Source: Candidatus Gastranaerophilales bacterium (lineage in GTDB: Bacteria; Cyanobacteriota; Vampirovibrionia; Gastranaerophilales; Gastranaerophilaceae). Taken from it: a DNA stretch of 64,000 nt. Location: contig CALVAY010000006.1 of NCBI GenBank assembly GCA_944325665.1, positions 1 through 64,000 on the forward strand, given 5' to 3'. The position numbers were made by a program, and so were the translations under genes. The notes beneath the pieces are model-generated. The model was given only the letters and a program-made list of their open reading frames with translations, did no database searches and had not been told where the DNA came from. This document shows positions 1,637-61,701 of this stretch, in pieces. How positions within the stretch are numbered: the first letter of the stretch is position 1; each line of letters opens with the position of its first letter.

Positions 1637-1642
1637 TATTAT
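1637..1642 (+). promoter_or_regulatory. Leaderless -10 box of mnmE
   Basis: TATTAT ends 6 bases before the mnmE ATG, placing the expected transcription start on the start codon. A weak -35 candidate TTTCAA lies 17 bases upstream (1614-1619). No Shine-Dalgarno site is present. Confidence 0.5.
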
Positions 1643-1648
1643 TCACAT

Positions 1649-2980
1649 ATGGATTACAGTTTTGATACAATTTGTGCAACAGCAACTCCGCTTAGTCTTG
1701 GAAGTATAGGCGTTATAAGAATTAGCGGAGAGTATGCCTTTAGGATAGTTGAGAAAATATTCAGTAAAAAAATCACCCCTAAAATGATAAATCACGGCTG
1801 GATTGTAGATGAAGGCAAAAAAATTGATGAAGTCATAGTACTTCCTTTTGTTGCGCCCCATAGCTATACGGGGGAAAATGTTGCAGAAATTCAAACGCAC
1901 GGCTCGCCTGTTGTTATGAATGAAATTTTAAATCTCGTTTTAAAAAATGGTGCAAGACTGGCACAAAGAGGCGAGTTTACCAAAAGAGCTTTTTTAAACC
2001 ACAAAATTGACCTCTCTCAAGCAGAGGCGGTCTTGGATTTAATTAACGCTAAAACTTCTAAATCTGCCCACGGAGCAGCAAATAACCTTTCAGGAAGCCT
2101 TAGGGAGAAAATAACAAAAATTAAAGACGATATAAGTGAAATTTTAGGTAAAATTATCGCATCTTTAGATTTTCCTGACGATGTCAAAGAGGTTGAATAT
2201 AGCGAAATAAAAGACAAAACAAGCGATATTATCCAAGAAATTGAAAATATTTTAAAAAACGCAAAAGGGCATAATATCCTAAGACAAGGTATAAAAATTG
2301 CGGTTATAGGAAAGCCCAATGCGGGCAAATCTTCGCTTTTTAATGCACTTTTAAGCTACAACAGAGCAATAGTTACTGAAATTGAAGGTACAACAAGGGA
2401 TACTATATCAGAAACCCTTGAAATAGAAGGGATTTGCGCAACTCTTATAGATACGGCGGGCATAAGAGATAAGGGGTGCGATAAGGTTGAAGACATTGGA
2501 ATAGAGCAGTCTAAGCTTGCCATAAATGACGCTGATATGGTACTTTGCCTATATGACGGCAAAGCAGGCATAACAGATGAAGATAAGGAAATATTTAAAC
2601 TCGCAAAAGATAAAAAACACTTGATAATAAAGACAAAAGAAGATATTTGCGAAGATAAAGTTCAAAAAGAAGGCGAAATTTCAATAAGCTCAAAGACATT
2701 ATTTGGTATAGAAGAGCTTAAAAAAAGAATTTATGAAGAAATTATCAGTATAAACCCTTGCGATGGCGAATTTTTAACAAATCAAAGACATCAAGAATGT
2801 TTAAATAAGGCACTTTTGGCACTTAAGCGAGCAAATAAAGCCGCAAGAGAAGAAGAATTGCAAGATTTAATAAGCATAGACCTAAAGGACGCTCTTTTGA
2901 GCCTTGGCGAAATATCAGGTGAGGTCATAACGGATGATATTTTAACGAATATATTTGAAAATTTCTGTATCGGCAAATAA
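1649..2980 (+). CDS. mnmE: tRNA modification GTPase MnmE
   Basis: With MnmG, installs the cmnm5 group on the wobble uridine of certain tRNAs; cytoplasmic, binds formyl-THF and GTP. The 443 residues show the N-terminal folate-binding domain (starts DTICATATPLSLGSIGVIR), a helical domain, and an inserted GTPase domain with G1 GKPNAGKSS (about 221-229), GTTRD (about 247-251) and DTAG (about 268). The C-terminus ends in the conserved C-x-G-K (CIGK, 440-443). Length is typical. A -10 box sits 6 bases upstream of the ATG, so translation is probably leaderless. A 140-base tail with a terminator follows. Confidence 0.97.
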   Translation: MDYSFDTICATATPLSLGSIGVIRISGEYAFRIVEKIFSKKITPKMINHGWIVDEGKKIDEVIVLPFVAPHSYTGENVAEIQTHGSPVVMNEILNLVLKNGARLAQRGEFTKRAFLNHKIDLSQAEAVLDLINAKTSKSAHGAANNLSGSLREKITKIKDDISEILGKIIASLDFPDDVKEVEYSEIKDKTSDIIQEIENILKNAKGHNILRQGIKIAVIGKPNAGKSSLFNALLSYNRAIVTEIEGTTRDTISETLEIEGICATLIDTAGIRDKGCDKVEDIGIEQSKLAINDADMVLCLYDGKAGITDEDKEIFKLAKDKKHLIIKTKEDICEDKVQKEGEISISSKTLFGIEELKKRIYEEIISINPCDGEFLTNQRHQECLNKALLALKRANKAAREEELQDLISIDLKDALLSLGEISGEVITDDILTNIFENFCIGK

Positions 2981-3025
2981 GCTTTTATTAAGTTTTGTAA
3001 ATACTTTTAAAAAATATGTTATGAA

Positions 3026-3150
3026 TTTTTTAGTTAGAGGAATAGTAATATTGTAAAGAAAAAAACTAATTAAGTTTCATAAAGTTTTCTCTCTAATTCC
3101 TCTCTCTAATATGTGGTAAATTTACTGGCTCTTTGGGTCAGTTTTTTTTA
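3026..3150 (+). ncRNA. Possible small RNA or structured 3' tail of mnmE
   Basis: Between mnmE and panD a structured stretch ends in a T-tract terminator. AGAGGAAT (3036-3043) can pair with ATTCCTCT (3096-3103); AAACT and AGTTT (3063-3077 region) can form a small inner hairpin; TCTCTCTAAT is repeated exactly at 3088-3097 and 3101-3110. A poor promoter (TTGTAA at 2995, TATGAA near 3020) could give an independent transcript. No known RNA family is recognised; it may simply be the mnmE 3' UTR. Confidence 0.25.
3124..3150 (+). terminator. Terminator downstream of mnmE
   Basis: ACTGGC pairs with GGTCAGT (one G:T pair and small offsets) around a short loop, followed by eight T residues. It ends mnmE or the candidate small RNA before the panD promoter. 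Confidence 0.65.
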
Positions 3151-3171
3151 TGTTGAATTTTATTTTTTTGC

Positions 3172-3177
3172 TACAAT
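3172..3177 (+). promoter_or_regulatory. Leaderless -10 box of panD
   Basis: TACAAT ends 6 bases before the panD ATG. No ribosome binding site fits in the spacer, so the mRNA probably begins at the start codon. No convincing -35 hexamer at 17 bases. Confidence 0.5.
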
Positions 3178-3183
3178 AAGAGT

Positions 3184-3531
3184 ATGTTAATGGAATTTTT
3201 ATACGCAAAAATACACAGAGCAACCGTAACAGACGCAAATCTTAACTACGTCGGCTCAATTACGATAGATAAAGCTCTGCTTAAGGCATCAAATATTAAA
3301 GTCGGACAAAAAGTAGAAATATTAGACATAAATAACGGCGAAAGATTCTCAACTTATGTCATAGAGGGCGAAGAAAACTCCGGTACAATTTGCCTTAACG
3401 GTGCTGCCGCAAGAAAAGTTCAAAAGGACGACAAAGTAATTATTGTGGCATACGCATTATTAAACGAGGAAGAACAAAAAACGTTCTCCCCCAAAATTGT
3501 CCATGTTGATGAAAATAACAAGATAGTCTAA
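3184..3531 (+). CDS. panD: Aspartate 1-decarboxylase
   Basis: Converts L-aspartate to beta-alanine for pantothenate and CoA synthesis. The 115-residue proenzyme has the self-cleavage site at Gly24-Ser25 (YVGSITID), the exact position in characterised PanD, which supports this start codon; the new N-terminal serine becomes the pyruvoyl cofactor. [11 protein letters not shown] near the N-terminus and NGAAAR near residue 80 are family signatures. No other pantothenate gene is nearby. Its stop codon overlaps that of the convergent ilvN by four bases. Confidence 0.96.
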
Positions 3532-4007
3532 TTTTTAGATATAGCAACTTTTCCGCTTCTTGCAAATTCCTTGTAACCGTAAGGCTTAATTAATTCAATT
3601 AAAGCCTGAATTTGCTTTTCATCGGATACAATCTGTATTGTATAAATTTTATCTGTAATATCTATAACTTTTGCACCGGTAACTTCTGCAATTCTTAAGA
3701 CTTTATCAACATCTTCATCTTTAACTTGCAGCTTAATTAAAACAACTTCCCTTTCAAGTGCTTCATTAACCGAAAGGTCGGAAACTTTTAGCACGGGGAT
3801 TAGCCTGTGTAATTGCTTGCAAACCTGCTCAATAGCTTCATTATTTGCAAAAGTTGTAATTGTTATTCTTGAATAATTTCTATCTATTGTGGGCGCAACA
3901 GTCAGTGTTTCAATGTTGTAGCCTCTGCCTGAAAACAAGTCCACTACGCGGGATAAAACTCCTGCTTCGTTTGTAACCAAAATAGATAATGTATGTATAG
4001 TACTCAT
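3528..4007 (-). CDS. ilvN: Acetolactate synthase small subunit
   Basis: Regulatory subunit of acetohydroxyacid synthase, the first common enzyme of valine, leucine and isoleucine synthesis; it activates the catalytic subunit and mediates valine feedback. The 159 residues fit the short IlvN/IlvH type: an N-terminal ACT domain ([23 protein letters not shown]) and a C-terminal ACT-like domain. A GGAG site precedes the ATG. It lies 11 bases after ilvB on the same strand, so the two subunits are co-transcribed. Confidence 0.95.
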
Positions 4008-4018
4008 ATTTACTCCAA

Positions 4019-5731
4019 TTATATTTCCTGACTGTTTGACAACAGAACTTTATTTAACGGTTGACCCGCAAGCACCCAAGGATAAACCATTTCAAAGTTT
4101 TCAACAACAAAGTCAATGAAAACGGAACAATTTGCTTCCATTGCTTCTTTAATAGCAGGGATAATATCTTCTTCTTTTTCAACCCTGATTCCTTTAGCGC
4201 CATATGCTTCAGCTAATTTAACAAAATCAGGCGAAGAGATTTTTGTTTCACTGTAATGCTTATGATATAGCTTTTCCTGCCATTGACGAACCATGCCTAA
4301 ATATCCGTTATTTATAACACAGTTAATTACTTTAAAACCATAATCCATACAAGTTGCAAGCTCTTGGATGTTCATTTGAATTGAACCGTCGCCCGCGATA
4401 TTAAGTACTAACGCGTTTTTATCAGCAACAGCCGCTCCCATTGCAGCGGGGAAACCAAAGCCCATAGTACCTAAGCCGCCCGATGTTATAAAATGTCTCG
4501 GCTCGTCCATTTTAAACATTTGCGCACACCACATTTGGTGCTGACCTACTTCGGTACATACAATAGGTTTAAAGGGTTTAGTGTATTCATATAGCGTTTC
4601 AATAACCTTTAGTGCACTCAATTTATCCGAAGGGCACTCGGGAATTGCACGTTTTTTACGCCATTCTTCAATTTGATTTAACCACTTGTCTTTAGCCTTA
4701 TGATCAACCAATAAAGCCTTTGTACAAAGCTCATCAATCATTGAGCTTAAAACATTTTTAGCATCGCCGACTATCGGAATATCTACTTTTACGTTTTTCG
4801 AGATAGAACAAGGGTCAATATCAATATGGATTACTTGCGAATCTCTTGCAAAGCGCTTTAAGCAACCTGTAATTCTATCGTTAAAGCGAGTGCCGACAGC
4901 AAAAATTACATCAGCATGAACTACTGCGTAATTTGCCCAATAATTTCCGTGCATACCAAGCATACCAAGGCTTAAAGGAGAGCTTTCAGGGAAAGTTCCC
5001 TTGCCCATTAAAGTATGAGCAACTGGTATCTCAAGCATTTCAGCTAACTTAGTTAACTCATGATGAGCTCCTGCCTGCAATACACCGCCACCCGAGATAA
5101 TTACGGGTCTTTGAGCTTCTTTTAACATCTTAAGCGCTTTTGAAATCTGAAGCGGGTGCCCCTTATAAGTCGGGTTGTAGCCAACTAATTTTACCTCAGA
5201 AGGGTAATTAAAAGTTGTCTTAGCAGTTAAAATATCTTTTGGCATATCAACAACAACGGGGCCGGGTTTGCCTGTTGTAGCAATATAAAATGCTTCTTTT
5301 ATTATTCTTGCTAAATCTTTAACATCTTTAACCAAATAGTTATGTTTGCAGCAAGAACGAGTAATACCGACAATATCAGCCTCTTGGAAAGCATCATTTC
5401 CGATTTGGTTTGTACCTACCTGACCTGTGAAAACAACAAGCGGATAGCCGTCATAGTACGCATTTGCAATACCTGTTATAGTGTTACAAGCACCTGGGCC
5501 GGATGTAACAAGGGCAACACCCGGACGACCCGAAACTCTTGCATAACCTTCGGCAGCATGCACTGCGGCTTGCTCGTGTCTTACAAGATAGTGTTTAATA
5601 GCTTTTTGGTTATATAAAGCTTCATAAATTGTCAAAATAACCCCACCGGGATATCCAAAAATTTCATCTACTCCTTCGGCTTCTAGCGATTTTAGGAAAA
5701 TCTCGGCACCTGTAAACAATTCTTTAGCCAT
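4019..5731 (-). CDS. ilvB: Acetolactate synthase large (catalytic) subunit
   Basis: Thiamine-diphosphate enzyme condensing pyruvate with pyruvate or 2-oxobutyrate. The 570 residues show the N-terminal TPP-binding domain with catalytic Glu53 in RHEQAAVHAAEG, the central domain, and the C-terminal TPP/Mg motif beginning GDGSIQMN (about 445). Length is standard. GGAGAG precedes the start codon. First gene of an ilvB-ilvN operon; a minus-strand TATAAT at 5765-5770 gives a leader of roughly 27 bases. I see no leader peptide, attenuator or T-box upstream, and no other branched-chain genes in the window. Confidence 0.96.
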   Translation of the reverse strand: MAKELFTGAEIFLKSLEAEGVDEIFGYPGGVILTIYEALYNQKAIKHYLVRHEQAAVHAAEGYARVSGRPGVALVTSGPGACNTITGIANAYYDGYPLVVFTGQVGTNQIGNDAFQEADIVGITRSCCKHNYLVKDVKDLARIIKEAFYIATTGKPGPVVVDMPKDILTAKTTFNYPSEVKLVGYNPTYKGHPLQISKALKMLKEAQRPVIISGGGVLQAGAHHELTKLAEMLEIPVAHTLMGKGTFPESSPLSLGMLGMHGNYWANYAVVHADVIFAVGTRFNDRITGCLKRFARDSQVIHIDIDPCSISKNVKVDIPIVGDAKNVLSSMIDELCTKALLVDHKAKDKWLNQIEEWRKKRAIPECPSDKLSALKVIETLYEYTKPFKPIVCTEVGQHQMWCAQMFKMDEPRHFITSGGLGTMGFGFPAAMGAAVADKNALVLNIAGDGSIQMNIQELATCMDYGFKVINCVINNGYLGMVRQWQEKLYHKHYSETKISSPDFVKLAEAYGAKGIRVEKEEDIIPAIKEAMEANCSVFIDFVVENFEMVYPWVLAGQPLNKVLLSNSQEI

Positions 5732-5755
5732 TATTTTCTCTCCAACAGTTTCTGA

Positions 5756-5770
5756 TATAATTGCATTATA
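5756..5770. promoter_or_regulatory. Back-to-back -10 boxes of sulP-type gene and ilvB
   Basis: TATAAT on the plus strand (5756-5761) and TATAAT on the minus strand (5765-5770, read as ATTATA) lie three bases apart. The start codon of the plus gene (5773) falls between the ilvB -10 and its weak -35 candidate (5787-5792), so the two transcription units are physically interleaved. Confidence 0.5.
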
Positions 5771-5772
5771 CT

Positions 5773-7359
5773 ATGAAAAAATTAAATGTAACAGGAGATT
5801 TATACGGAGGAATTTTAGGTGCTATAATTGCACTGCCTCAAGCATTAGCATTTGGTGTAGCTATTGGTGTGGGTGCACTTTCAGGACTTTGGGGTGCGGT
5901 AATTTTATGTTTTATGGTCGGCATTTTTGGTTTTAATCAACCTCTTTTATCAGGCCCGACAGGTCCTAGCGCAATTGTGGTTGCAAGCGCCTTAATCACA
6001 CTGAACGGGAATATTGAAGCACTTTTTGCAGTGATGTTTTTAAGCGGGATATTTCAAATAATCATTTCAAGAACAAAACTCACGGACTTTGTAAAATACG
6101 TCCCATATCCTGTTATATCGGGCTTTATGAACGCAGTCGGAATTATACTTATAATTCTTCAGATTAACCCGTTTTTGGGGAATAAGTCCCTTGCAAAGCC
6201 GATTTTAGCCCTAAAAGACCTTCCTAATTCAATATTAAGCGTCAATCAGGATGCATTTTTCATAGGTCTTTTAAGCTTAGTGATAATTTTTGCAACACCA
6301 AGAGCAATAAGTAAAATAATTCCCTCTCAAGTGCTTGCAATTATTGTGGCAACACTGTGCAGCTGGGCTTATAAACTTGATGTAGCAACGGTAAGCGGAG
6401 TTACTTCCGAACTGCCAAAAATAGTTTGGGCAGATTTTTCAAACATTTCATCCCTCATTATTCCTGCGCTAATTATAGCCATTGTCTGCTCATCAGAAAG
6501 CCTTTTGACGAATTTGGTTGTAGATTCGCTAACCAAAACAAATTGCGATACCAGAAGAATGATACTTTCTCAAGGGATAGGTAATTTAGCCTGCTCACTT
6601 TTTGGAGCAACGGTAGGCTCCGGTGCTACAATGCGCTCTGCTGCGGCAATTAAGGCAGGCGGAAGGACAAGATTTTGTGCAATAATCTGTTCTTTAATTT
6701 TACTTGTTATTATCCTATTCGGTTCGGATTTTGCAAATAAAATTCCCCTAAGTGCGCTTGCAGCAGTGCTTTTTAAAGTTGGGGCAGATATTGTTGACAC
6801 AAAACTTTTAAAAGTCATAAAATTTGCGCCAAGGGAAGACTTATTTGTAATGTTTTTGGTGTTTTTCCTTACGATTACAACGGATATAATCGTCGGAGTT
6901 GTAGCGGGAATTACACTGAGTGCAGTTATTTTCGCAAAACAGTTGGCAGATAAGGTTAACGTTAAAACAAAATTTGTCGTTGACAGCGAAACAATCACAC
7001 TTGAGAAAAATCTTGAAAGAGAAATGAACTATAAAATAAGGGTAGTGCATATTTTGGGAGAATTTTTCTTTGGAAGCGCAACACACATTATCTCGCACTT
7101 TGAAGAAATTTTAGGCACAAAGTGCATTATTATTTGCTATGATTCCGAAAAATTACTTGATATTAGCGCAATATTTGCCCTTGAAGACATTATAACAAGG
7201 CTAAAGGGGCAAAAGATTAATGTACATCTTGTTGTTAAAAATAACGAGATTAAAACACAGTTGGATAATTTAAAAATTTCCGAGCAAATCGGGCAAGATA
7301 ATATTTTTCAGGATGAAAAAGACGCAATTTTGCATGCCGAAAAAATATTAAAGAAATAA
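5773..7359 (+). CDS. SulP-family anion transporter with STAS domain
   Basis: Predicted inner-membrane anion carrier (sulfate, bicarbonate or dicarboxylate; substrate unresolved). The 528 residues hold about ten to twelve hydrophobic segments with SulP signatures: ALPQALAFGVAIGVG near the N-terminus, SGPTGPSAIV, and the VGSGATMRSAAAI region, followed by a cytoplasmic STAS domain from about residue 425 to the end. I take the ATG at 5773; an in-frame TTG at 5761 lies inside the -10 box and is unlikely. The leader would be only a few bases. No sulfate-assimilation genes adjoin it, so a bicarbonate role known for cyanobacterial members is possible but unproven. Confidence 0.88.
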   Translation: MKKLNVTGDLYGGILGAIIALPQALAFGVAIGVGALSGLWGAVILCFMVGIFGFNQPLLSGPTGPSAIVVASALITLNGNIEALFAVMFLSGIFQIIISRTKLTDFVKYVPYPVISGFMNAVGIILIILQINPFLGNKSLAKPILALKDLPNSILSVNQDAFFIGLLSLVIIFATPRAISKIIPSQVLAIIVATLCSWAYKLDVATVSGVTSELPKIVWADFSNISSLIIPALIIAIVCSSESLLTNLVVDSLTKTNCDTRRMILSQGIGNLACSLFGATVGSGATMRSAAAIKAGGRTRFCAIICSLILLVIILFGSDFANKIPLSALAAVLFKVGADIVDTKLLKVIKFAPREDLFVMFLVFFLTITTDIIVGVVAGITLSAVIFAKQLADKVNVKTKFVVDSETITLEKNLEREMNYKIRVVHILGEFFFGSATHIISHFEEILGTKCIIICYDSEKLLDISAIFALEDIITRLKGQKINVHLVVKNNEIKTQLDNLKISEQIGQDNIFQDEKDAILHAEKILKK

Positions 7360-7381
7360 ATAAAACTTAAGGGCAATGTTT

Positions 7382-7429
7382 TTTAAACCGCCAAAACTTA
7401 AAATTTAAGTATGGAAAGGATGGTTTAAA
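7382..7429 (+). promoter_or_regulatory. Nested inverted repeats in superoxide reductase leader
   Basis: TTTAAACC (7382-7389) is the exact inverse of GGTTTAAA (7422-7429), whose last base is the A of the start codon. Inside lies ACTTAA-AAT-TTAAGT (7396-7410). The Shine-Dalgarno sequence GGAAAGGA sits between the two stems. The structure could expose or hide the start codon, or the inner palindrome could be an operator. Stems are A:T-rich, so stability is modest. Confidence 0.35.
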
Positions 7430-7818: not shown

Positions 7819-8468
7819 AAAACTTTTTTGCAAAAATCCTTAATTGAGCACTCTTCGCACTTTGGTCTTTGCGGTTTACAGACATTTTGACCGTGAGTAA
7901 CAAGGAGCGTATTAAAATCAATCCAATATTTCTTTGGCAAAATTTCCCGAAGTTTAAACTCTGTTTCTTCGGGATTTTTTGTTTTTACATACCCTAAGCG
8001 GTTGCAAATTCGATGCACATGGACATCAACGCAAATTGCAGGAGTATTAAAACCTTTTGTTAAAACCAAATTTGCCGTCTTTCTGCCGACACCCTTGAAT
8101 TTTACCAATTCTTCAATGCTGTTTGGGGTTTTACCGTTATATTTTTCAACAATTTCTTTTGAAAGTTCAATAATTTGCTCAGCTTTATTTTGATAAAATC
8201 CGACAGGATAAATGGCTTCTTTTAGCTTTTCAACATCAACTCTCATCATATCATAGGGATTTTTTGCAAGCTCAAGCATACGCATTGCAGCACCGTAAGT
8301 CGTTTTATCATTAGTCCTTAGGCTTAAAATACAGCAAATTAAGACCAGATAAGGATCAGCGACTTTTTCCATAAACTTAACAAAATCAGTCTGCACAACC
8401 TTACCGTCTTTGTTATCTTGTTTAAGATTTTTAATAATATTATCTATATCCATATTGCTAACTTGCAT
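7815..8468 (-). CDS. nth: Endonuclease III (DNA glycosylase/AP lyase)
   Basis: Base-excision repair enzyme removing oxidised pyrimidines and nicking abasic sites. The 217 residues show the helix-hairpin-helix FKGVGRKTA with the catalytic lysine, the aspartate in CVDVHVHR, and a C-terminal 4Fe-4S cluster with spacing C197-x6-C204-x2-C207-x5-C213. An alternative start at 8453 (MDIDN) is possible. I prefer 8468 because a minus-strand TATAAT at 8484-8489 with TTGTTT 16 bases further upstream gives a leader of only about 8 bases. Neither start has a Shine-Dalgarno site. Confidence 0.96.
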   Translation of the reverse strand: MQVSNMDIDNIIKNLKQDNKDGKVVQTDFVKFMEKVADPYLVLICCILSLRTNDKTTYGAAMRMLELAKNPYDMMRVDVEKLKEAIYPVGFYQNKAEQIIELSKEIVEKYNGKTPNSIEELVKFKGVGRKTANLVLTKGFNTPAICVDVHVHRICNRLGYVKTKNPEETEFKLREILPKKYWIDFNTLLVTHGQNVCKPQRPKCEECSIKDFCKKVF

Positions 8469-8511
8469 ATAATAATAATTACGATTATAATACCAAAAAA
8501 GGAGAAAACAA
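8463..8511. promoter_or_regulatory. Overlapping divergent promoters of nth and trxA
   Basis: Plus strand: TTGCAT (8463-8468), 17 bases, TATAAT (8486-8491) for trxA. Minus strand: TTGTTT (8506-8511), 16 bases, TATAAT (8484-8489) for nth. The two -10 boxes overlap in the palindrome ATTATAAT. The trxA -35 is exactly the reverse complement of the first six bases of nth (ATGCAA). Confidence 0.6.
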
Positions 8512-8513
8512 AA

Positions 8514-8837
8514 ATGAGTAATGCTAAAGATATAAACGATGCTACATTTGAAGCAGAAGTTTTAAAAAACGAAACTCTTACACTTGTTGATTTCTGGGCA
8601 CCTTGGTGCGGACCTTGCAGAAAAATGGGCCCTGTGTTAGACGAAATCGCTTCCGAATTTGAAGGAAAACTTAAGGTTGTAAAAATTAACACGGATGAAA
8701 ACCTAAAAACTGCAAAAGACTACCAAATAAGCGGTTTGCCAAGTTTGCTTCTTTTTAAAGACGGCGAAGCAAAAGAAATCATGGTTGGTTTAATGCCAAA
8801 ATCTGCAATTGTTTCAAACATTGAAAAATTACTGTAA
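8514..8837 (+). CDS. trxA: Thioredoxin
   Basis: Cytoplasmic protein-disulfide reductase, electron donor to reductases and peroxidases. The 107 residues are the full family length, with active site W31-C32-G33-P34-C35, the buried Asp26, and the cis-proline in SGLPSLLLF. I chose the ATG at 8514 because AGGAG lies just upstream; the frame stays open further 5' but that part would cross the promoter and encode an isoleucine-rich stretch foreign to the family. A strong terminator follows. Confidence 0.96.
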   Translation: MSNAKDINDATFEAEVLKNETLTLVDFWAPWCGPCRKMGPVLDEIASEFEGKLKVVKINTDENLKTAKDYQISGLPSLLLFKDGEAKEIMVGLMPKSAIVSNIEKLL

Positions 8838-8855
8838 TTTAAAATTTAAAATTTT

Positions 8856-13602: not shown

Positions 13603-13736
13603 AGAAAAATTTATAATTAATTCGCACACAGATACAATTACAAAACAAATGAAGGTCAATTTTTGCCCTAATGTAACAAAATTTATATTTTTGTTAAATA
13701 TTTGTCCAATATAAATAAATAAATTATCCTGTAAAT

Positions 13737-18508: not shown

Positions 18509-18514
18509 ATTTTA
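18509..18514 (-). promoter_or_regulatory. Leaderless -10 box of tsaE
   Basis: Minus-strand TAAAAT followed by a 6-base spacer and ATG. No good -35 hexamer is visible. Confidence 0.45.
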
Positions 18515-20564: not shown

Positions 20565-21647
20565 ATGATGAAAAAAATTCTCATTTGTTTAATTATCACA
20601 AGCATAATTCCGCTTTTTTGCGCATGCTCAAAAAAAGAGGAAGAGGTTTTGCGCCCTGTTGAATATGTTCTGGCACAAAGCTCAAAAAGTATTAAAAATA
20701 AAGCTTTTTCAGGGTACTTAAAATCTGCAACGCTTACCAACTTAAGCTTTCAAATTGAAGGGTATTTAGAAAGAATCTACCCGAGCGAAGGGGCAAAAGT
20801 AAAAAGCGGGCAGCTTCTTGCAAAACTTGATTCTCCGCTTTATCAGATACAAGTACAAGAAGCTCAGTATAATTTGGCAGATATTCTTGTTCAATATCAA
20901 AACGCAAGGAATTATTATCAAAGAATTAAACAACTAAATGAAATGGGCGGAATTTCAGACAATGACACCGATAACGCCAAAACAAAAATGGAGTCCGTAA
21001 ATTACCAAATTCAGGTTGCAAGAGAAAAGCTAAACTATGCCAAAGAAAGGCTAAACTACTCAAACCTTTACGCTCCGCAAGACGGGATTGTCCTTACAAG
21101 GGTTGCTTCAGAAAAACAATACGTAAAACCGGGTGATACAATAATTGAATTTCAAGGTATTAAAGATATTGACGTCTATATCTCGGTTTCACAAAACTAT
21201 ATCAATGAAATTTATTTAAACCAAAACGCAAAAGTAAGAGTTGATGCAATAAAAGACAAGATTTTTGACGCCAAAGTTAAAGAAATAAGCGGGACAAGCT
21301 TGGGCGGAATTTCTTATCTTGTAAAATTAAGACCGATACTTCAAAGTGAAGAATTGAAAGACGGCATGAGCGCAAACGCCGTTTTTGAGATTAAAGAAGA
21401 AGAAAAATCATTTATAAAAATACCTATAAACTCTATTTTAAAAGAGGGGGATGACAATTTCGCATACACAATTGAAGAAAGGAAAGAAAACAAGGGGATA
21501 ATTAAGAAAAACAAAGTAACCCTTGGCGCTCTTCAAGGAGATTATATTGAAGTAATTTCAGGGATAGAAGAAGGGCAATATGTAGTAAGCAAAGGGGTAG
21601 AAGAAGTGCAAGAGGGTCAGAAGGTAGTGTTTAATGAAAATAACTGA
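20565..21647 (+). CDS. RND efflux periplasmic adaptor lipoprotein
   Basis: Membrane-fusion subunit linking an inner-membrane RND pump to an outer-membrane channel. A lipoprotein signal with lipobox F-C-A-C ends near residue 21. Then come the barrel-sandwich half (FQIEGYLERIYPSEGAKVKSG), an alpha-helical hairpin (about 90-160), the second lipoyl half (LNYSNLYAPQDGIVL) and beta-barrel and membrane-proximal domains. Two ATGs are adjacent (20565, 20568); the second lies 7 bases after a TATTAT -10 box and fits the leaderless spacing seen elsewhere. It overlaps the pump gene by 14 bases. Confidence 0.9.
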   Translation: MMKKILICLIITSIIPLFCACSKKEEEVLRPVEYVLAQSSKSIKNKAFSGYLKSATLTNLSFQIEGYLERIYPSEGAKVKSGQLLAKLDSPLYQIQVQEAQYNLADILVQYQNARNYYQRIKQLNEMGGISDNDTDNAKTKMESVNYQIQVAREKLNYAKERLNYSNLYAPQDGIVLTRVASEKQYVKPGDTIIEFQGIKDIDVYISVSQNYINEIYLNQNAKVRVDAIKDKIFDAKVKEISGTSLGGISYLVKLRPILQSEELKDGMSANAVFEIKEEEKSFIKIPINSILKEGDDNFAYTIEERKENKGIIKKNKVTLGALQGDYIEVISGIEEGQYVVSKGVEEVQEGQKVVFNENN

Positions 21648-29322: not shown

Positions 29323-29351
29323 TTGTACTTTTTAAAATAAAAAAGTATAAT
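29323..29351 (+). promoter_or_regulatory. Leaderless promoter of secreted protein at 29359
   Basis: TTGTAC (29323-29328), 17 bases, TATAAT (29346-29351), then 7 bases to ATG. A full -35/-10 pair with start-codon-proximal spacing and no Shine-Dalgarno site. Confidence 0.6.
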
Positions 29352-31011: not shown

Positions 31012-31039
31012 TGTTAAATTATAAATAAAATTTTAAAAT
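31012..31039 (+). promoter_or_regulatory. Leaderless promoter candidate of comEC
   Basis: TTGTTA (31012-31017), 16 bases, TAAAAT (31034-31039), then 8 bases to the comEC ATG. The region is A+T-rich, so chance matches are possible. Confidence 0.4.
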
Positions 31040-31047: not shown

Positions 31048-33504
31048 ATGAATAATAAAACTTTATTTATAATTCTTATCTCAATATTTTACGTTTTTGG
31101 TATTTGCGCTTTCTTCTTTGAACTCAAAGTGCCATTTGCGCTCTTTTGTGCGACAATTTCAATAATTTTAATTTTCACAAACAAAATTTCAAGACTTTAT
31201 GCAACGCTTTTGTTTCTGGTATTTATTTTAGGTTTTATAAACACCGACAGAAACCTTAAACAACAAGACAGTCTTTCAAATATAAGAGCCTCTAATGTTG
31301 TTCTTTCAGGCAGAGTTGAAAGCATTCCGCAAATTATAAGCAGTAAAAATCAAGTCAAAATTTTTCTCAATGTAAATTCGGCAAAAATTTCAGATAAGAC
31401 TTTTAAGATAAAAGATACCAAAAGCCTTGTTGTTATTAACAATATTGCCAAAAATAATATTCAAATAGGCGATATTATTGAAACAAAAGGAAATTTAAGA
31501 CCGCCAAAGAAAGCAAGTAACCCTTCACAGTTTGATTATGCAAAATATTTACAGTACAAGGACACTTTTTCAATTTTATACAGTGAATATAAAGACTTAA
31601 AAGTGCTTCAAAAGTGCGAAAATTTTAGCAATGCAGAGGAATTTTGGTGGTTTATTCTGCAAAAATTTGACACAAAGAGAGATGAAATTATTGAAAAGCA
31701 CTCTAAAATTATTAAAAGCCCGAATTTAGAAATATTGGGCGGAATAGTTTTTGGTAACGAAGCAATAAATCCGCCCGATGAAATTAAACAGAATTTTATC
31801 TCCTCAGGACTTTTACACCTTCTTGCAGCAAGCGGCTTAAACGTTGCGTTAATTTTTGGTATTTGGTGGTTTTTAGCAACAAATCTTAGAGTTCCTTATG
31901 TTCTTGCAACATATTTAGGAATGTTTTTAATTGTTTTATATACCTTTATGACAGGCTTTCCGCCTTCAATTTTAAGGGCAGCCATAATGCTTTTGTTTGT
32001 TCTTTTGGGGCAGTTAATCGACAGACAAACAAAACCCGTGGCACTAATTTTCTTTGTGGGCTTCATAATGCTTCTTTTTGACCCCAAAATGTTCTTTGAC
32101 GTAGGTTTTCAGCTTTCTTTCGTTGTAACAATAGGCTTAATTTTAACGGTTGAGCCAATATGCTCAAAATTGGATAACGTAAATAAAAAATACATTGAAA
32201 AAATTAAAGACAAGGCAAGAATTATAAGAGTAATTTTACTGAGTATATGTCCAAAGGCACTTCTTGCAGCGTTTTTAGTACCACTTTGTGCTCAACTTTT
32301 TGTTGCACCGCTTCAAATGTATTACTTTAACACTTTTACCCCATGGAGCTTATTTGCAAACTTGTGTGTAGTTCCTTTTATAGGAATAATAAGCTTTTTG
32401 GGGTTTATAAGTTCAATAATTTGCGAGATTCCGTTTATAGGCAATTTTGCTCTTACAATGCTTGATACAATAATAAATCCGTTTTTAACCATTCTGATTA
32501 AAATATCCGAATTTTTCTCGAGCCTTGAGCGCTCTGTTCTTATTACACCTTCGCCTTTGATTTTTCAAATTTTAATTTATTGGGCGATTTTGTTGTTTTT
32601 AACTTTAAATATTGCAAAAAACTTTAAGAATAAACAATTTAAAGTAATTCTCTTGAGTTTAATTTTAGTACTTTTTGTATCTTGTATAAAATTTCAAAAC
32701 AAAAACCTTGAAATAATAACCTTTGATGTGGGTAACGCAGATGCAATTCTTGTAAAAACTCCAAACAGCAAGTATATATTAACAGATACGGCAATGTTAC
32801 CTTATAAAAGTGTATCGAGTGCAAAAAGTATAATTATTGAATACTTAAGAGATAAAAACATTAAAGAGTTGGAACTACTTGTTATCACCCACTTTGACGC
32901 TGACCACTGCGGCGGAGCATTAGATATTTTAAAAAATGTCAAAGTAAAAAACATAATTTTACAAAAAGATAACCCAAAAGAGTTGGCAGGCTTAGAAATT
33001 ATAAAATACTTAAAAGAAAACAATCTAAAATACACTCTTGCCGAGAATAACAAGGTTTTATACAAGGACAAAGATACTGAAATTAAAAGCTTTAGGGCAA
33101 ACTTAAAACTTAGCGAAAAAGACAGAGAAGATAACGAAAACTCTATTGTAATACAAATTAAAACAAAAGATGTAAACGCACTTTTGATGGGCGACTGCGG
33201 GGTTTTAGGGTATGAGGAGTTTAAAAATTATATAGGTAAAATTGATATTTTAAAAGTAGGACACCACGGCGCAAAAGAATCAGTAAATAAGGAAATGCTT
33301 GAAAGATTAAGCCCGAAATACTCTTTAATCTCAAGCGGCTACAATAAATACGGACATCCTTCTCACTTAACCTTAATGGAATTATCTAAAACAGATACCA
33401 AAATATTCTGTACAAAAAGCACAGGGGCAATAAAAATATCCGAGTGCAAAAACCACAACTGCAAAGTAGAAATATATAACAGGGGTTTTAAGAAATACCC
33501 TTAA
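31048..33504 (+). CDS. comEC: DNA uptake channel ComEC/Rec2
   Basis: Carries single-stranded DNA across the inner membrane during natural transformation. The 818 residues have an N-terminal membrane and OB-like region (about 1-190), the Competence membrane domain (about 225-540; LLAASGLNVALIF, GFPPSILRAAIML) and a C-terminal metallo-beta-lactamase-like domain with THFDADHCGG (about 614-623), GDCG and KVGHHGAKES. The full three-part architecture suggests a functional channel. No comEA, pilus or dprA gene is in the window. Its last codons lie inside a 12-bp inverted repeat. Confidence 0.93.
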   Translation: MNNKTLFIILISIFYVFGICAFFFELKVPFALFCATISIILIFTNKISRLYATLLFLVFILGFINTDRNLKQQDSLSNIRASNVVLSGRVESIPQIISSKNQVKIFLNVNSAKISDKTFKIKDTKSLVVINNIAKNNIQIGDIIETKGNLRPPKKASNPSQFDYAKYLQYKDTFSILYSEYKDLKVLQKCENFSNAEEFWWFILQKFDTKRDEIIEKHSKIIKSPNLEILGGIVFGNEAINPPDEIKQNFISSGLLHLLAASGLNVALIFGIWWFLATNLRVPYVLATYLGMFLIVLYTFMTGFPPSILRAAIMLLFVLLGQLIDRQTKPVALIFFVGFIMLLFDPKMFFDVGFQLSFVVTIGLILTVEPICSKLDNVNKKYIEKIKDKARIIRVILLSICPKALLAAFLVPLCAQLFVAPLQMYYFNTFTPWSLFANLCVVPFIGIISFLGFISSIICEIPFIGNFALTMLDTIINPFLTILIKISEFFSSLERSVLITPSPLIFQILIYWAILLFLTLNIAKNFKNKQFKVILLSLILVLFVSCIKFQNKNLEIITFDVGNADAILVKTPNSKYILTDTAMLPYKSVSSAKSIIIEYLRDKNIKELELLVITHFDADHCGGALDILKNVKVKNIILQKDNPKELAGLEIIKYLKENNLKYTLAENNKVLYKDKDTEIKSFRANLKLSEKDREDNENSIVIQIKTKDVNALLMGDCGVLGYEEFKNYIGKIDILKVGHHGAKESVNKEMLERLSPKYSLISSGYNKYGHPSHLTLMELSKTDTKIFCTKSTGAIKISECKNHNCKVEIYNRGFKKYP

Positions 33505-34337: not shown

Positions 34338-34343
34338 TATAAT
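34338..34343 (+). promoter_or_regulatory. Leaderless -10 box of TPR gene at 34352
   Basis: TATAAT followed by 8 bases and ATG, without a Shine-Dalgarno site. It lies within the 42-base gap to divergent yebC. Confidence 0.5.
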
Positions 34344-35768: not shown

Positions 35769-35774
35769 ATTTTA
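35769..35774 (-). promoter_or_regulatory. Leaderless -10 box of FtsB-like gene
   Basis: Minus-strand TAAAAT, 6-base spacer, ATG. TGGAAA lies 17 bases further upstream (35792-35797) as a partial -35. Confidence 0.5.
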
Positions 35775-42727: not shown

Positions 42728-42733
42728 ATTCTA
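42728..42733 (-). promoter_or_regulatory. Leaderless -10 box of rlmN
   Basis: Minus-strand TAGAAT, 6-base spacer, ATG. It faces the divergent HD-GYP gene across 68 bases. Confidence 0.5.
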
Positions 42734-42777: not shown

Positions 42778-42783
42778 TATAAT
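42778..42783 (+). promoter_or_regulatory. Leaderless -10 box of HD-GYP gene
   Basis: TATAAT, 6-base spacer, ATG at 42790. No Shine-Dalgarno site in the spacer; no convincing -35. Confidence 0.5.
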
Positions 42784-47430: not shown

Positions 47431-47563
47431 TTTTACCCTCCTTGTTTTTCAAAATTATACCAAAAAATAAATCTAAAGATAATTAGAAAATCAACCTAGA
47501 GATTAATCTAATTTTTTAAAAATAACCGTAAACTTATCATGTAAATTAGGGATAAGTTCAGCT

Positions 47564-53932: not shown

Positions 53933-53938
53933 ATTCTA
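53933..53938 (-). promoter_or_regulatory. Leaderless -10 box of rel
   Basis: Minus-strand TAGAAT followed by seven T residues and ATG. No ribosome binding site can fit. Confidence 0.5.
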
Positions 53939-57069: not shown

Positions 57070-57075
57070 ATATTT

Positions 57076-57127
57076 ATTTTAAAGAGAAATCAAATAAGTT
57101 GCAAATGTCAAAATATAAAACTATAAT
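57076..57127. promoter_or_regulatory. Symmetric divergent promoter with one shared -35
   Basis: Minus -10 TAAAAT (57081-57076), 17 bases, palindromic TTGCAA (57099-57104), 17 bases, plus -10 TATAAT (57122-57127). Each -10 is exactly 6 bases from its ATG (57069 minus, 57134 plus). The single TTGCAA can serve as -35 for either direction. Confidence 0.7.
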
Positions 57128-57133
57128 AATGTT

Positions 57134-58816
57134 ATGGATTCACAGGAAGAAAACTCTTTAGATTACATAAAAAAGTCTTTTGAGCTTAAAAATTCAAAAT
57201 TATACAAAGAAGCTATTGAGATGCTCTATAAAGCTCTGGAGTTTGAAGAAGGAAGGGCAAACGCTGAGATAATTTCTCAAATAGGCGATTTATACACTCT
57301 TTTAAAGAACTATGATAGAGCCTTAGAAGAGTACGAAAAAGCTCTTGATATAGACAAAAATCATCTTCATTCGCTTGAGCAAATAAGTGAGTTGAACTTT
57401 GCTTTGGGCAATTACGCAAAGGCTCTTGAAGCGTCCAAAAAAATCATTGAAGCAACAAATGATGTAAAATATTTCATTTCTCACTTTGAGATACTCTTTA
57501 AGCTTGGATATTTTGACAAATTAAAAGAAATGTATGAAGGCTTTGATGATAATTTAAAAAATAATCCTCAAATTCTTTATATTTTATCCAAAACAGGAAT
57601 TTATCCAAAAAAAGAACTTTTAAAAAGAGCTGTTGAGGCTGATTTTAACTTTACAAAGGCAGTCTTTGACCTCGCTGTTGAATACTTTAACGACGAAGAG
57701 TACGCAAGTGCAAAAGAACTCTTCAAACACGTCGTTAAGCAAGAAGAAAATTCTTTAGCTTATTACTACATCGGTGCAATAGAGCATATCGAAGGGCACT
57801 TCTTTGAAGCAATTGACGCCTACTTAGACTGCATTAAGCTTGATAAAACAAACGACAAGTGCTGCTTTGAGCTTGCAAAGGCGTATATTGACATCAACTG
57901 GCTTGAAGAAGCACAAATCGCAATAAAAAGCTCAATAGGAATTTTAAAACTAAAAGATGAAAAGTCCTTAAAGCTTGATGAACACCACTTTTTACTGGCT
58001 TGGATATTGTCAAAAGAGGGAGATGATAAAAATGCCCTCCTGTATTTGGATTTAATCGAAAAAGATTCAAAAATGTATCCCAACGCGCAAATTCTAAAGA
58101 ATACGCTTAGTTTGACATCTGATAATTACATAAAAGCAAAAGAAATTCTTGAAAAATATTATACTCAAAATGAGGAAGACGCTAAGAACCCGATTTTAAT
58201 AGAATCTTTAGGTAAAATATATAAAAATTTAAAGCTTTACAAAGATGCAATAAATTTGTATGAAAAAGCCCTTGAATTCTTCCCGAACTCGGTTTTCTAT
58301 GCTCTTGAACTTGTTGATATATTAATTGATGACAAGCAATATGATAAGGCTTTAGCATTAGCGAAAGATTTAGAAGTAAGAGCACCAAAATGCCCAAGCA
58401 CCTATAACTCTTTTGCAAGAATATATTACAGACTTAAAAACTATGATGCGGCAATTGAAAACTTAAAAATATTAAACCAAATGGACATAAATAATGCCGA
58501 GGGCTTCTATTTCTTAGGACTTATTCAAAATGACATCTGCCAAGCACAAGCCGCACTTGAAAACTTTAAAATCGCACTAACCCTAAACCCCATGCCTGCA
58601 AAATACTACGCACAGGCATCAAGAGCCTATGAGACAATGGGTGATTTAGAAAATGCGATGTTATACATTAAAGAAGCTATTGAAATTGCACCTGAAGAGA
58701 TTAACTACAAAAGACAGGCAAAAAATATCGCTCAAAAAATGGGTGATGAAGAAAAAACAAGCTTCTATCAATCTCAAATTACAAGAATGGAGCAGCTTTT
58801 AAGGCAAAGAGGTTAG
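57134..58816 (+). CDS. Large tetratricopeptide repeat protein (560 residues)
   Basis: Cytoplasmic all-helical protein with about a dozen TPR-type repeats along its length (ISQIGDLYTLLKNYDRALEE, YFLGLIQNDICQAQAALENF, YYAQASRAYETMGDLENAML). No signal peptide or enzyme domain. Probably a scaffold. It shares a divergent promoter core with the glycosyltransferase gene and its stop overlaps the convergent U32 peptidase gene by four bases. Leaderless translation likely. Confidence 0.85.
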   Translation: MDSQEENSLDYIKKSFELKNSKLYKEAIEMLYKALEFEEGRANAEIISQIGDLYTLLKNYDRALEEYEKALDIDKNHLHSLEQISELNFALGNYAKALEASKKIIEATNDVKYFISHFEILFKLGYFDKLKEMYEGFDDNLKNNPQILYILSKTGIYPKKELLKRAVEADFNFTKAVFDLAVEYFNDEEYASAKELFKHVVKQEENSLAYYYIGAIEHIEGHFFEAIDAYLDCIKLDKTNDKCCFELAKAYIDINWLEEAQIAIKSSIGILKLKDEKSLKLDEHHFLLAWILSKEGDDKNALLYLDLIEKDSKMYPNAQILKNTLSLTSDNYIKAKEILEKYYTQNEEDAKNPILIESLGKIYKNLKLYKDAINLYEKALEFFPNSVFYALELVDILIDDKQYDKALALAKDLEVRAPKCPSTYNSFARIYYRLKNYDAAIENLKILNQMDINNAEGFYFLGLIQNDICQAQAALENFKIALTLNPMPAKYYAQASRAYETMGDLENAMLYIKEAIEIAPEEINYKRQAKNIAQKMGDEEKTSFYQSQITRMEQLLRQRG

Positions 58817-60627
58817 GCCTTTTTAACTACCATTTCACAATTTTTACAATCAAAAAACAGCTCCAGTCTGTCATTATTTTCGTTAATCAAAAAAAGTTTC
58901 TCGCTTGTGTTTGTTTTTTTATCCTTCAAACACATATTTAAAGCACGCCTTATGCAGTGTTTTGTCCTCATAAGCTCGGCTTTGTCGATATTTTTTAAGC
59001 TCTCAAAAGACATTTGCTCAGGCACAAGAGAACATTTCTTGTAAAATTCCTTAGCACAGTTGTTGTGAACATTTAGTCGATAGTCATTATTTGAGCAAGG
59101 ATAAGGCGAAGGGCTGATTTTTCTTTTTGGTCTATTCAGGCGCTTTTTGTTATACTCATCAAGTCTTTTTTGCATTAACTTTTCAAATAATTCACGCCTT
59201 AGTGAGTTAATTTCCGAAATTTTTAAGAAAGGAATTTTATCCTCTTGAAATATAATTTCGTCAAAGTAAAAATCGCTCTGTCTCGTTTTTTTCATCTGGT
59301 TAATAAATATCTCTTTTGATTTTTGAGGATTGTTTGCAAATTCTACCTTACCAAAAGGCATTTTTAGCTCAATTAAATCCTCGTCAACAATTTTAACCTC
59401 ATTTGAATTCACAAAAAGTGTGGCTCTAATTTGCCTTTTTGTTTTTGATTTCTTTAATTTTGAATCAAATTCGCTGTCAAAATTTCTAAAAATATTTTTA
59501 CCCAATATATTTTTTAACTCTTTATTCGGATAAATTCTTACAAAGTCTTTATTTTTTTCAACCCTGTTAACCAAAAAACCGAGGACACTTTTATCAAAGT
59601 AACATAAGCCGTCTTGAGGATTAATTTCAAGGTTTGTTTTAACATCAATATATTTATTTGCTACATTAACTACCTTGCCAAGTTTTTCTCCTATATGTCC
59701 GCTTGATTTAAAGTTAAATATATCTTTATTTTTATCATCCAAGAAATATGTACAAAAACCGCGATTAAAGGTTTTATTTACATCCGGTATAAAATCATAG
59801 TTAACCTTACCTGATGAAATTCTTTTTCTGTCCTTAAGTGCTAAATTAAAAGCGCTTACAACATTTTTTATGTAATTTTCATCCTTTAATCTTCCCTCAA
59901 TTTTAAAAGACACAACCCCCGCGTCAACTAAATCATCAAGATAAGGTAGAGCGCAGAAGTCTTTAAGGCTTAACAGGTGCATATCTTTTGCGTAAACTTT
60001 TCCAAGATTATTTACAAGAGTATATTTTTTTCTGCAAGGTTGAGCACACTCACCCCTGTTTGCAGAGCGAGAACCTAACTTTGCACTTAAATAACACTGT
60101 CCGCTGTAACTAACACAAAGCGCACCAAAAACAAAAGTCTCAACTTCTATATTCGAACAGGAGGTAATTTCTCTAATTTGCTCTAAAGACAACTCTCTTG
60201 CCAAAATTACTCTATCAAGACCCAAATTCTCAAAAAATTTAACCTTGTTTTTATCCCTTATATCGCACTGTGTACTTGCTGAAATTAAAAACGGGGGTAA
60301 ATCCATGTTAAAGATTGCAAAATCCTGAACTATAATACCGTCAACACCCGCGTCCCAAAGCCCATACAGGAGCTTTTGCACATCCCCTAATTCTTCATCT
60401 TTTAAAATTGTATTTATCGTTACATAAACTCTTGCAAAAAATTTATGGGCATAATTTACAACCTCTTTAATATCATCAAGAGAATTTGCCGCTCCTTTTC
60501 TTGCCCCAAAATTACCCGCACCAATGTATATGGCATCAGCACCATATTCTATTGCGCACATTGCACAGTTTTTATCTTTAGCGGGCGCAAGCAGTTCCAG
60601 TTTATTATCTTTAAAAGCATTTACCAT
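58813..60627 (-). CDS. U32 family peptidase/RNA hydroxylase-like protein
   Basis: 604 residues from the ATG at 60627 (a TTG three codons upstream is less likely). The family core is clear: ELLAPAKDKNCAMCAIEYGADAIYIG, a glutamate-rich region, and the cluster-binding cysteine set around CYLSAKLGSRSANRGECAQPC. Characterised relatives (RlhA, TrhP) hydroxylate cytidine or uridine in rRNA or tRNA; true protease activity is doubtful. The C-terminus has extra cysteine pairs (near SLVPEQ and LFFDCKNCEM). TATAAT lies 11 bases before the ATG. Confidence 0.88.
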   Translation of the reverse strand: MVNAFKDNKLELLAPAKDKNCAMCAIEYGADAIYIGAGNFGARKGAANSLDDIKEVVNYAHKFFARVYVTINTILKDEELGDVQKLLYGLWDAGVDGIIVQDFAIFNMDLPPFLISASTQCDIRDKNKVKFFENLGLDRVILARELSLEQIREITSCSNIEVETFVFGALCVSYSGQCYLSAKLGSRSANRGECAQPCRKKYTLVNNLGKVYAKDMHLLSLKDFCALPYLDDLVDAGVVSFKIEGRLKDENYIKNVVSAFNLALKDRKRISSGKVNYDFIPDVNKTFNRGFCTYFLDDKNKDIFNFKSSGHIGEKLGKVVNVANKYIDVKTNLEINPQDGLCYFDKSVLGFLVNRVEKNKDFVRIYPNKELKNILGKNIFRNFDSEFDSKLKKSKTKRQIRATLFVNSNEVKIVDEDLIELKMPFGKVEFANNPQKSKEIFINQMKKTRQSDFYFDEIIFQEDKIPFLKISEINSLRRELFEKLMQKRLDEYNKKRLNRPKRKISPSPYPCSNNDYRLNVHNNCAKEFYKKCSLVPEQMSFESLKNIDKAELMRTKHCIRRALNMCLKDKKTNTSEKLFLINENNDRLELFFDCKNCEMVVKKA

Positions 60628-60739
60628 ATAAAACAAATATTATACACAAAATATCGTCCGAGTGAATTATTTAACAAAACACACCTTTTTTGATAATATA
60701 TAGATTATATTTACATATAAAGAAAGTTGATAAGAAAAA

Positions 60740-61378
60740 TTGGATAATTTACTGAACCCATTATATATTAATACGGGTATTTTGTTTCTTGTACTGTATA
60801 TTTTTCTTAAAATATTTTACAAAAATAATGCAATCTGTGAAATTGAAAAAAATCTCGATACGCAAGAATATTTAATTTGCGACATAACACCGATAATTTA
60901 TTTAGACTTTGTTTTTGCCTTTTTATTCGGTTATGCTTTTTCGCAAATTGTAAGCATAAATAACTTAAATTCTATTCATAATTTTTTCTCAAACTATGAC
61001 AATATAAGCTTTTTTACTAAGGCAATTTTTACTGTTTTTGAAATGACAATCTTAAACCTGCTTGCATCGAACAATATTTTTATAACAAACAGGAGAATAA
61101 TTTTTGAAAGCTGTTTTTTAAATGGTTTTGCAAATAATCAAAATGAAATTTTAAATGCACATTTTAATGATATAAAAAAATGTCGAGAACAAGATTCTAT
61201 CCTTGGTAAAAAGTTTGTCATCAGGTTCAAAAGTACTGAAAACAAATATATACTTTATAAAATAAATACACCCTGCTATACTCTTGCCTCAAAAGCAATC
61301 AGAGGAATACGCAGAGAAAACATATCAGATAAACTGAGCAAAAGAAGATTGAAAAACAAGGCTCAAATAGCAATATAA
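60740..61378 (+). CDS. Membrane protein with PH-like (YdbT-type) domain
   Basis: 212 residues from a TTG at 60740; no ATG is available in frame near there, so the start is uncertain. Hydrophobic segments lie at about 10-28 and 50-70, with a weaker one near 95-112. The part after 115 (NIFITNRRIIFESCFLNG ... EILNAHFNDIKKCREQDSILG) resembles bacterial PH domains, where ITxxRII begins the fold. Basic C-terminus. Function unknown. The tRNA-Thr gene on the other strand begins two bases after its stop. Confidence 0.6.
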   Translation: MDNLLNPLYINTGILFLVLYIFLKIFYKNNAICEIEKNLDTQEYLICDITPIIYLDFVFAFLFGYAFSQIVSINNLNSIHNFFSNYDNISFFTKAIFTVFEMTILNLLASNNIFITNRRIIFESCFLNGFANNQNEILNAHFNDIKKCREQDSILGKKFVIRFKSTENKYILYKINTPCYTLASKAIRGIRRENISDKLSKRRLKNKAQIAI

Positions 61379-61380
61379 AT

Positions 61381-61453
61381 TGCCGATGAGGGGACTCGAA
61401 CCCCTGACCTGTCGATTACGAATCGACTGCTCTACCAACTGAGCCACATCGGC
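61381..61453 (-). tRNA. tRNA-Thr (anticodon CGT)
   Basis: Reading the minus strand gives a 7-bp acceptor stem GCCGATG / CATCGGC, D-arm GCTCAGTTGGTAGAGC, anticodon arm with loop TTCGTAA, and T-arm with GGTTCGAGTCC. Discriminator A. The 3' CCA is not encoded. Confidence 0.97.
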
Positions 61454-61460
61454 ATATTAT

Positions 61461-61485
61461 AAAAGAGCCATAAACCGGCTCTTTT
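61461..61485 (-). terminator. Hairpin between tRNA-Arg and tRNA-Thr
   Basis: AAAAGAGCC / GGCTCTTTT perfect 9-bp stem with a 7-base loop and T residues on the minus strand. It directly follows the tRNA-Arg CCA. It could end tRNA-Arg transcription or be a processing stem, since no separate tRNA-Thr promoter is clear. Confidence 0.55.
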
Positions 61486-61486
61486 A

Positions 61487-61563
61487 TGGCGCGCCCAGAG
61501 AGATTCGAACTCCCGACCTTTTGGTTCGTAGCCAAACACTCTATCCAGCTGAGCTATGGGCGC
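61487..61563 (-). tRNA. tRNA-Arg (anticodon ACG), CCA encoded
   Basis: Minus-strand cloverleaf: acceptor GCGCCCA / TGGGCGC, D-arm GCTCAGCTGGATAGAGT, anticodon arm TTTGG-CTACGAA-CCAAA with ACG, T-arm GGGAGTTCGAATCTC. Discriminator G at 61490 is followed by C-C-A (61489-61487), so the tail is encoded, unlike the neighbouring tRNA-Thr. Confidence 0.97.
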
Positions 61564-61689
61564 ATATGTTATTTAATTGTTTGTCAATTCCGACAAATTA
61601 AATCATAACACAAACCAAAGAAAAATTACAAAACATTTTTTTAAAACAAAATACTATATAAAAATGATTATATAAATAAAAAGATAAAT

Positions 61690-61695
61690 TATAAT
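61690..61695 (+). promoter_or_regulatory. Leaderless -10 box of capA-like gene
   Basis: TATAAT, 6-base spacer, ATG at 61702. No Shine-Dalgarno site and no clear -35 hexamer. Confidence 0.5.
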
Positions 61696-61701
61696 TCAGA
61701 A

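Follow-up and report, generated by a model that had tools for sequence, protein, structure and literature searches.

Boxes of −10 type exactly six bases before ATG suggest leaderless expression beside Shine-Dalgarno initiation in a Gastranaerophilales bacterium

Introduction

The signature expected of leaderless genes – those whose messenger RNA (mRNA) begins at the start codon itself – has been described in two settings that resemble the one considered here. Zheng 2011 (PMC3160421) reports TA-like signals in which TANNNT lies about 12 bases 5′ of the start codon and is read as a −10 box. For Deinococcus-Thermus (PMC12340547, 2025), the account treats a −10 box directly before the open reading frame (ORF) as the promoter of a leaderless mRNA. 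Here we describe a box of the same kind, TANNAT ending 6 bases before ATG, in a stretch of 64,000 nucleotides from a Candidatus Gastranaerophilales bacterium (contig CALVAY010000006.1 of assembly GCA_944325665.1, positions 1 to 64,000; hereafter the window, meaning the whole of this stretch) and elsewhere in the same genome.

The source genome amounts to 1.65 Mb in 30 contigs, and the G+C content of the window is about 32–38%. The Gastranaerophilales are gut bacteria that belong to a non-photosynthetic class related to cyanobacteria. The closest named relatives, in which Rel is about 90% identical, are Candidatus Gastranaerophilales assemblies, including Candidatus Galligastranaerophilus intestinavium. 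From the letters of the window alone, the original prediction named 13 genes with a −10 hexamer ending 6 to 8 bases before ATG, and proposed that widespread leaderless genes, transcribed by sigma-70 polymerase, coexist with genes that carry Shine-Dalgarno sites. All 13 hexamers can be read back from the sequence at the distances claimed.

Results

The −10 box peaks exactly six bases before ATG

In 30 of the 168 first-in-unit genes that start with ATG, TANNAT lies exactly 6 bases before the start codon, where distance is counted as the bases between the end of the hexamer and the start. The sample, 464 kb in all, consists of the window together with 20 other 20-kb pieces of the genome, and the longest ORFs of at least 100 amino acids in it were called as genes (405 ORF-genes). 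A gene was taken as first in its unit if its upstream neighbour is divergent or lies across a gap of at least 40 bases; genes at the ends of stretches that had no neighbour, or fewer than 80 upstream bases (60 in an earlier count), were omitted. Two null models were used: the mean count at distances 15–44, and dinucleotide shuffles. The former gives 4.57 for the 168 genes (Poisson P = 2.8e-15 for the 30 observed), the latter 2.75 ± 1.67 (standard deviation) with a maximum of 8 in 200 shuffles. The observed count lies well beyond both null models. The peak recurs in the 400 kb held out by setting the window aside (21/134 genes, background 3.57), as it does in the window by itself (9/34, background 1.00).

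The peak is narrow. Counts of TANNAT at distances 3 to 10 are 1, 2, 3, 30, 8, 3, 4 and 1; distances 5, 7, 8 and 9 together contribute 18, compared to 11.3 in shuffles with a maximum of 23 in 100. These four distances are within the shuffle range, and distance 6 alone is therefore clearly above chance: the predicted spacing of 6 to 8 holds for 6, although 7 may apply in single genes. A peak of the looser motif TANNNT at distance 11 was considered as a second spacing and rejected; we take it to reflect TGn, since TAtgNT overlaps the box. The excess at distance 6 corresponds to about 15% of ATG first-in-unit genes, or about 25 of the 405 called genes (about 6%); "widespread" was thus too strong a word.

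The boxes have the surroundings of promoters

Evidence that the boxes are promoters comes from what lies around them. TGn stands at the exact extended −10 offset in 12 of the 30 distance-6 boxes, compared to 0–5 at the other offsets scanned, and TTG upstream of the boxes is found most often at −35 (6), followed by −36 (3), with −26 also at 3. Position within the unit matters: first-in-unit genes carry the box in 30/168 cases against 4/105 for operon-internal genes (Fisher P = 5e-4). Shine-Dalgarno matches of at least 4 bases are depleted, being present in 6 of the 30 boxed genes as opposed to 84 of the 138 remaining first-in-unit genes (P = 7.6e-5). The register of TGn and −35, the rarity in operon-internal genes and the depletion of Shine-Dalgarno sites are the grounds on which we read the box as a promoter. 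It is also more frequent before ATG than before GTG or TTG (30/168 vs 2/57, P = 0.007), a comparison weakened by wrong starts among the latter.

The second mode of initiation named in the original prediction is also evident: Shine-Dalgarno matches of at least 4 bases precede 59.6% of 292 ATG genes, where shuffled sequence yields 20.0%. A search for the 3′ end of 16S ribosomal RNA, with its anti-Shine-Dalgarno tail, gave no match in the assembly itself nor elsewhere among 15 same-genus genomes (own included), but the search matched only 9 of 14 controls and absence is thus unproven.

Conservation of the sites in the window

Each gene was compared with as many as 14 sequences from the genus that differ in their upstream DNA, after removal of those with identity below 45%, matches starting after residue 6, starts other than ATG, GTG or TTG, or identical upstreams; at least 3 orthologs were available for 41 of the 45 ATG genes in the window (Table 1). 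Retention at an unchanged distance averages 0.84 for eight distance-6 sites, 0.48 for five sites at 7–8 and 0.32 for 30 TANNAT sites at 13–50.

Table 1. Candidate −10 boxes and associated elements in the window, with their conservation in same-genus orthologs
Feature	Sequence	Coordinates	Strand	Bases before start	Orthologs	Remarks
mnmE −10 box	TATTAT	1637..1642	+	6 (ATG at 1649)	3/4 at 6, fourth at 7	
panD −10 box	TACAAT	3172..3177	+	6 (ATG at 3184)	1/4 at 6, other three at 9	weak
Histidine kinase/response regulator gene 13737	TATCCT	13725..13730	+	6 (ATG)		absent from the original prediction; no TANNAT match
tsaE −10 box	TAAAAT	18509..18514	-	6 (ATG)	5/5	TsaE domain
Gene 29359, −35-like	TTGTAC	29323..29328	+			17 bases 5′ of the box at 29346
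Gene 29359 (secreted protein) −10 box	TATAAT	29346..29351	+	7 (ATG)	3/4 at 7, 4/4 within one base	
comEC hexamer	TAAAAT	31034..31039	+	8 (start at 31048)	0/6	
TPR gene 34352 −10 box	TATAAT	34338..34343	+	8 (ATG)	7/7 at 8	TPR domains
FtsB/DivIC-like gene −10 box	TAAAAT	35769..35774	-	6 (ATG)	9/9	DivIC domain
rlmN −10 box	TAGAAT + TGn	42728..42733	-	6 (ATG)	13/13	TGn seen in the 12 loci displayed
HD-domain (HD-GYP) gene 42790 −10 box	TATAAT	42778..42783	+	6 (ATG)	14/14	HD_5 domain; divergent from rlmN
mscS Shine-Dalgarno	AGGAGG	47437..47442	-			contrast gene; read from sequence
rel hexamer	TAGAAT	53933..53938	-	7	0/11	
Glycosyltransferase gene −10 box	TAAAAT	57076..57081	-	6 (ATG)	9/9	Glycos_transf_2
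Palindrome, single	TTGCAA	57099..57104	.			−35 (17-base spacer) for both the glycosyltransferase and TPR 57134 promoters
TPR gene 57134 −10 box	TATAAT	57122..57127	+	6 (ATG)	9/12 at 6, others at 7 (12/12 within one base)	
CapA-like gene −10 box	TATAAT	61690..61695	+	6 (ATG)		PGA_cap domain; read in the window only

Several entries deserve comment. The perfectly retained distance of 8 at TPR gene 34352 makes a leader of one or two bases more likely there than none. Gene 29359 has no Pfam match, "secreted" being the label of the original prediction. At gene 13737, whose assignment is backed by its domains, TATCCT or TATTCT stands at distance 6 in all five orthologs displayed. Judging by their absence in orthologs, the hexamer before comEC is probably not a leaderless promoter and that before rel probably not a conserved one. 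In mscS, the contrast gene, TANAAT has no fixed place: across the window and 12 orthologs its distance from the start ranges between 20 and 31 bases, and there is an additional match at 12.

The glycosyltransferase gene and TPR gene 57134 diverge over 64 bases (57070–57133), in which the single TTGCAA falls exactly at the −35 position of both promoters and can be read in the displayed same-genus orthologs of both genes; two putatively leaderless genes thus seem to share one −35 element. A general pattern of leaderless genes in divergent pairs was considered and rejected: both boxes occur in 3 of 70 divergent pairs, with 1.9 expected from the marginals, which is no excess.

Three start codons in the window call for separate mention. 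The true starts of yidC (485–1594) and trxA (8418–8837) are probably internal ATGs – after AGAGGAG in yidC and after a Shine-Dalgarno-like site in trxA – making both genes shorter than the longest ORF. The HlyD-like gene at 20565–21647 reads ATGATGAAA at its start; ahead of the second ATG, relatives show GTG, GTA, ATA or TTG. Translation therefore probably begins at the second ATG, which has a box some 7 bases upstream.

Reach across relatives and turnover at rel

The distance-6 box extends, in weaker form, beyond the genus. Six other genera of the family, sampled at 100 kb each, have it before 7/39, 5/46, 1/37, 3/40, 5/43 and 2/41 genes; some 40 first-in-unit genes apiece do not suffice for a ranking of these genera. 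Pooled, the count is 23/246, where the background is 7.2 (P = 2e-6). Their 23 boxes carry TGn in 10 cases and TTG at −35 in five, Shine-Dalgarno sites accompany 4/23 boxed as opposed to 153/223 unboxed genes (P = 2.3e-6), and 2 of 126 operon-internal genes have the box.

Further out, counts at distance 6 are not significant, in samples that are small: 4/88 vs 2.2 in two other families of the order, 5/241 vs 2.5 in other families of the class, 2/130 vs 1.7 in members of the phylum and 0/53 vs 0.7 in Firmicutes flanks. Heterogeneity of rate among the nine sampled groups has P = 0.013, background included. Four low-GC families of the class show no peak at distance 6 (4/112), yet 16/112 genes have a box at distances 5–9, where shuffles give 8.0 ± 2.7 (maximum 17 in 100). 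This diffuse excess may point to an older and less exact form in the class, and counts against the trait being new to the family.

Turnover is suggested by rel. Among 20 relatives with Rel about 72–75% identical, the distance from TATAAT to the start of rel is 6 bases in six, 22–26 in 13 and 10 in one. The six are mutually close, and this perhaps reflects one change rather than several. Pooled rel flanks in relatives give distance-6 counts of 29/94, 11/123 and 32/270 against 1.97, 3.97 and 6.13, the third group being high also at distances 4 (15) and 9 (14); the same orthologs recur in these pools, and they were not used for P values.

Discussion

Our data indicate that sigma-70-type promoters very probably give rise to predicted leaderless mRNAs for about 15% of ATG genes that head a unit, alongside Shine-Dalgarno initiation. 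At the level of sequence, a promoter-like anatomy that ends 6 bases before ATG, is conserved, and is concentrated in genes heading transcripts is established. The step from anatomy to transcript draws on the known geometry of such promoters: sigma-70 polymerase as a rule begins transcription some 7 bases beyond the −10 box, from which we infer initiation at the A of ATG. The promoters would be of the ordinary sigma-70 type, with a −10 TANNAT, often TGn, and in some cases a TTG-type −35 about 17 bases 5′; with exactly 6 bases between the box and ATG, transcription would start at the A, and ribosomes would initiate on the resulting leaderless mRNA with no need of a Shine-Dalgarno site. This mode would serve about 15% of ATG genes that have room for a promoter of their own, beside a majority that carries Shine-Dalgarno-like sites. 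Loss of bS21 as the cause was rejected because the protein is nearly always found (97/98 class genomes and 59/59 phylum genomes searched, the two sets overlapping).

A number of observations weigh against this interpretation. Between about 3 and 4.6 of the 30 boxes are expected by chance. Calling the longest ORF means that part of the starts are wrong, and if an ATG anywhere within the first 60 codons is accepted the counts become 34 vs 7.6 for TANNAT and 39 vs 18.5 for TANNNT: with motif or start so loosened the background is higher and the peak weaker, yet it is significant in this genome. Shine-Dalgarno-like matches do occur in six boxed genes, and the four operon-internal boxes exceed their own background of 0.87; some of these genes may have promoters of their own. 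Deinococcus radiodurans plasmid MP1, a control from a group known for leaderless genes, gave two boxes each at distances 6, 7, 9, 11 and 28 among the 36 genes used (of 42 annotated features, six omitted), too few to discriminate. Of the 13 boxes originally named, those of comEC and rel are unconserved and that of panD is weakly conserved. Finally, both the start at the A and the translation of a leaderless mRNA are predictions made from promoter geometry. For the sigma-70 reading of the original prediction the balance is that it remains the best one – by exact spacing, TGn and −35 elements, position at transcript heads, Shine-Dalgarno depletion and orthologs – while comEC, rel and panD give it little or nothing, and TPR gene 34352 keeps to its distance of 8.

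A critical issue is whether the boxes could mean something else. The alternative closest to our own holds that the −10 boxes are real but that transcription mostly starts 1–3 bases upstream of ATG, or at multiple positions, giving near-leaderless mRNAs with a tiny leader. The slight excess at distance 7 (8 vs 4.57) is in keeping with this, as are TPR gene 34352 and the variation between 6 and 7 at TPR gene 57134 and gene 29359; yet the peak at 6 is several-fold above that at 7, no excess is seen at distance 5, and the neighbouring distances pooled stay inside the shuffle range. We consider it unlikely.

Far less probable is that the AT-rich box is an element of translation – a binding site for S1, or an unstructured A/T-rich start context, of the kind proposed for some phyla – in an mRNA that begins further upstream. 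Nakagawa 2017 (PMC5397173) suggests that S1 binding could instead explain the A/T or U bias that precedes genes lacking Shine-Dalgarno sites; upstream sequence in this genome is generally A/T-rich, and the surplus of operon-internal boxes fits such a role. However, the hexamer keeps to one exact distance and is accompanied by TGn and by −35 sequence, and it is found much more rarely in operon-internal genes, whose translation does not call for a separate promoter. That the original prediction merely selected matches that arise by chance where intergenic DNA is rich in A/T is hardly credible: TANNAT is indeed common at 35% GC (about 4.6/168 at any distance), and comEC and rel resemble such cases, but 200 shuffles never exceeded 8, the peak was replicated in held-out sequence, and orthologs conserve it. 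Chance is refuted as a general explanation, and remains likely for single genes.

With exactly placed leaderless promoters as the favoured interpretation, a broader scenario may be sketched, if with considerable doubt: that leaderless expression was both tightened, to a spacing of exactly 6 bases, and expanded in the family as a derived state, in a phylum whose photosynthetic members, according to two sources, do not typically use it, that genes such as rel switch modes among close relatives, and that one divergent pair shares a palindromic −35. If true, the gain and loss of leaderless expression would be directly readable in very close relatives, and relatives in which one gene seemingly has different modes would provide a natural test of mode shifts. 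There is also a practical hint for the calling of starts in this lineage, namely TGnTANNAT-N6-ATG.

The comparison with known systems is instructive in both its likenesses and its differences. As in Zheng 2011 (PMC3160421), there is a TG peak of the kind seen there in low-GC genomes, and coexistence with Shine-Dalgarno genes; but whereas many cyanobacteria use neither mode there, here a non-photosynthetic member of the phylum appears to use both (Table 2 of that work is without a cyanobacterial row). In Deinococcus-Thermus (PMC12340547) the average is about 30% of ORFs, in contrast to about 6% here, where TGn is frequent and Shine-Dalgarno initiation dominant; figure S7 of that paper covers common phyla and may include the Gastranaerophilales lineage. 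The GeneMarkS-2 classification (PMC9581028) has a leaderless group, with cyanobacteria instead exemplifying weak, unknown start signals. Published sources disagree on the start signals of cyanobacteria. A search for "leaderless" together with Melainabacteria, Gastranaerophilales or Vampirovibrio, which left aside most subscription papers, found no literature. The present data add a low-GC gut lineage, beside cyanobacteria, to the bacteria that apparently mix leaderless and Shine-Dalgarno expression. The leaderless signature itself is already established in the literature.

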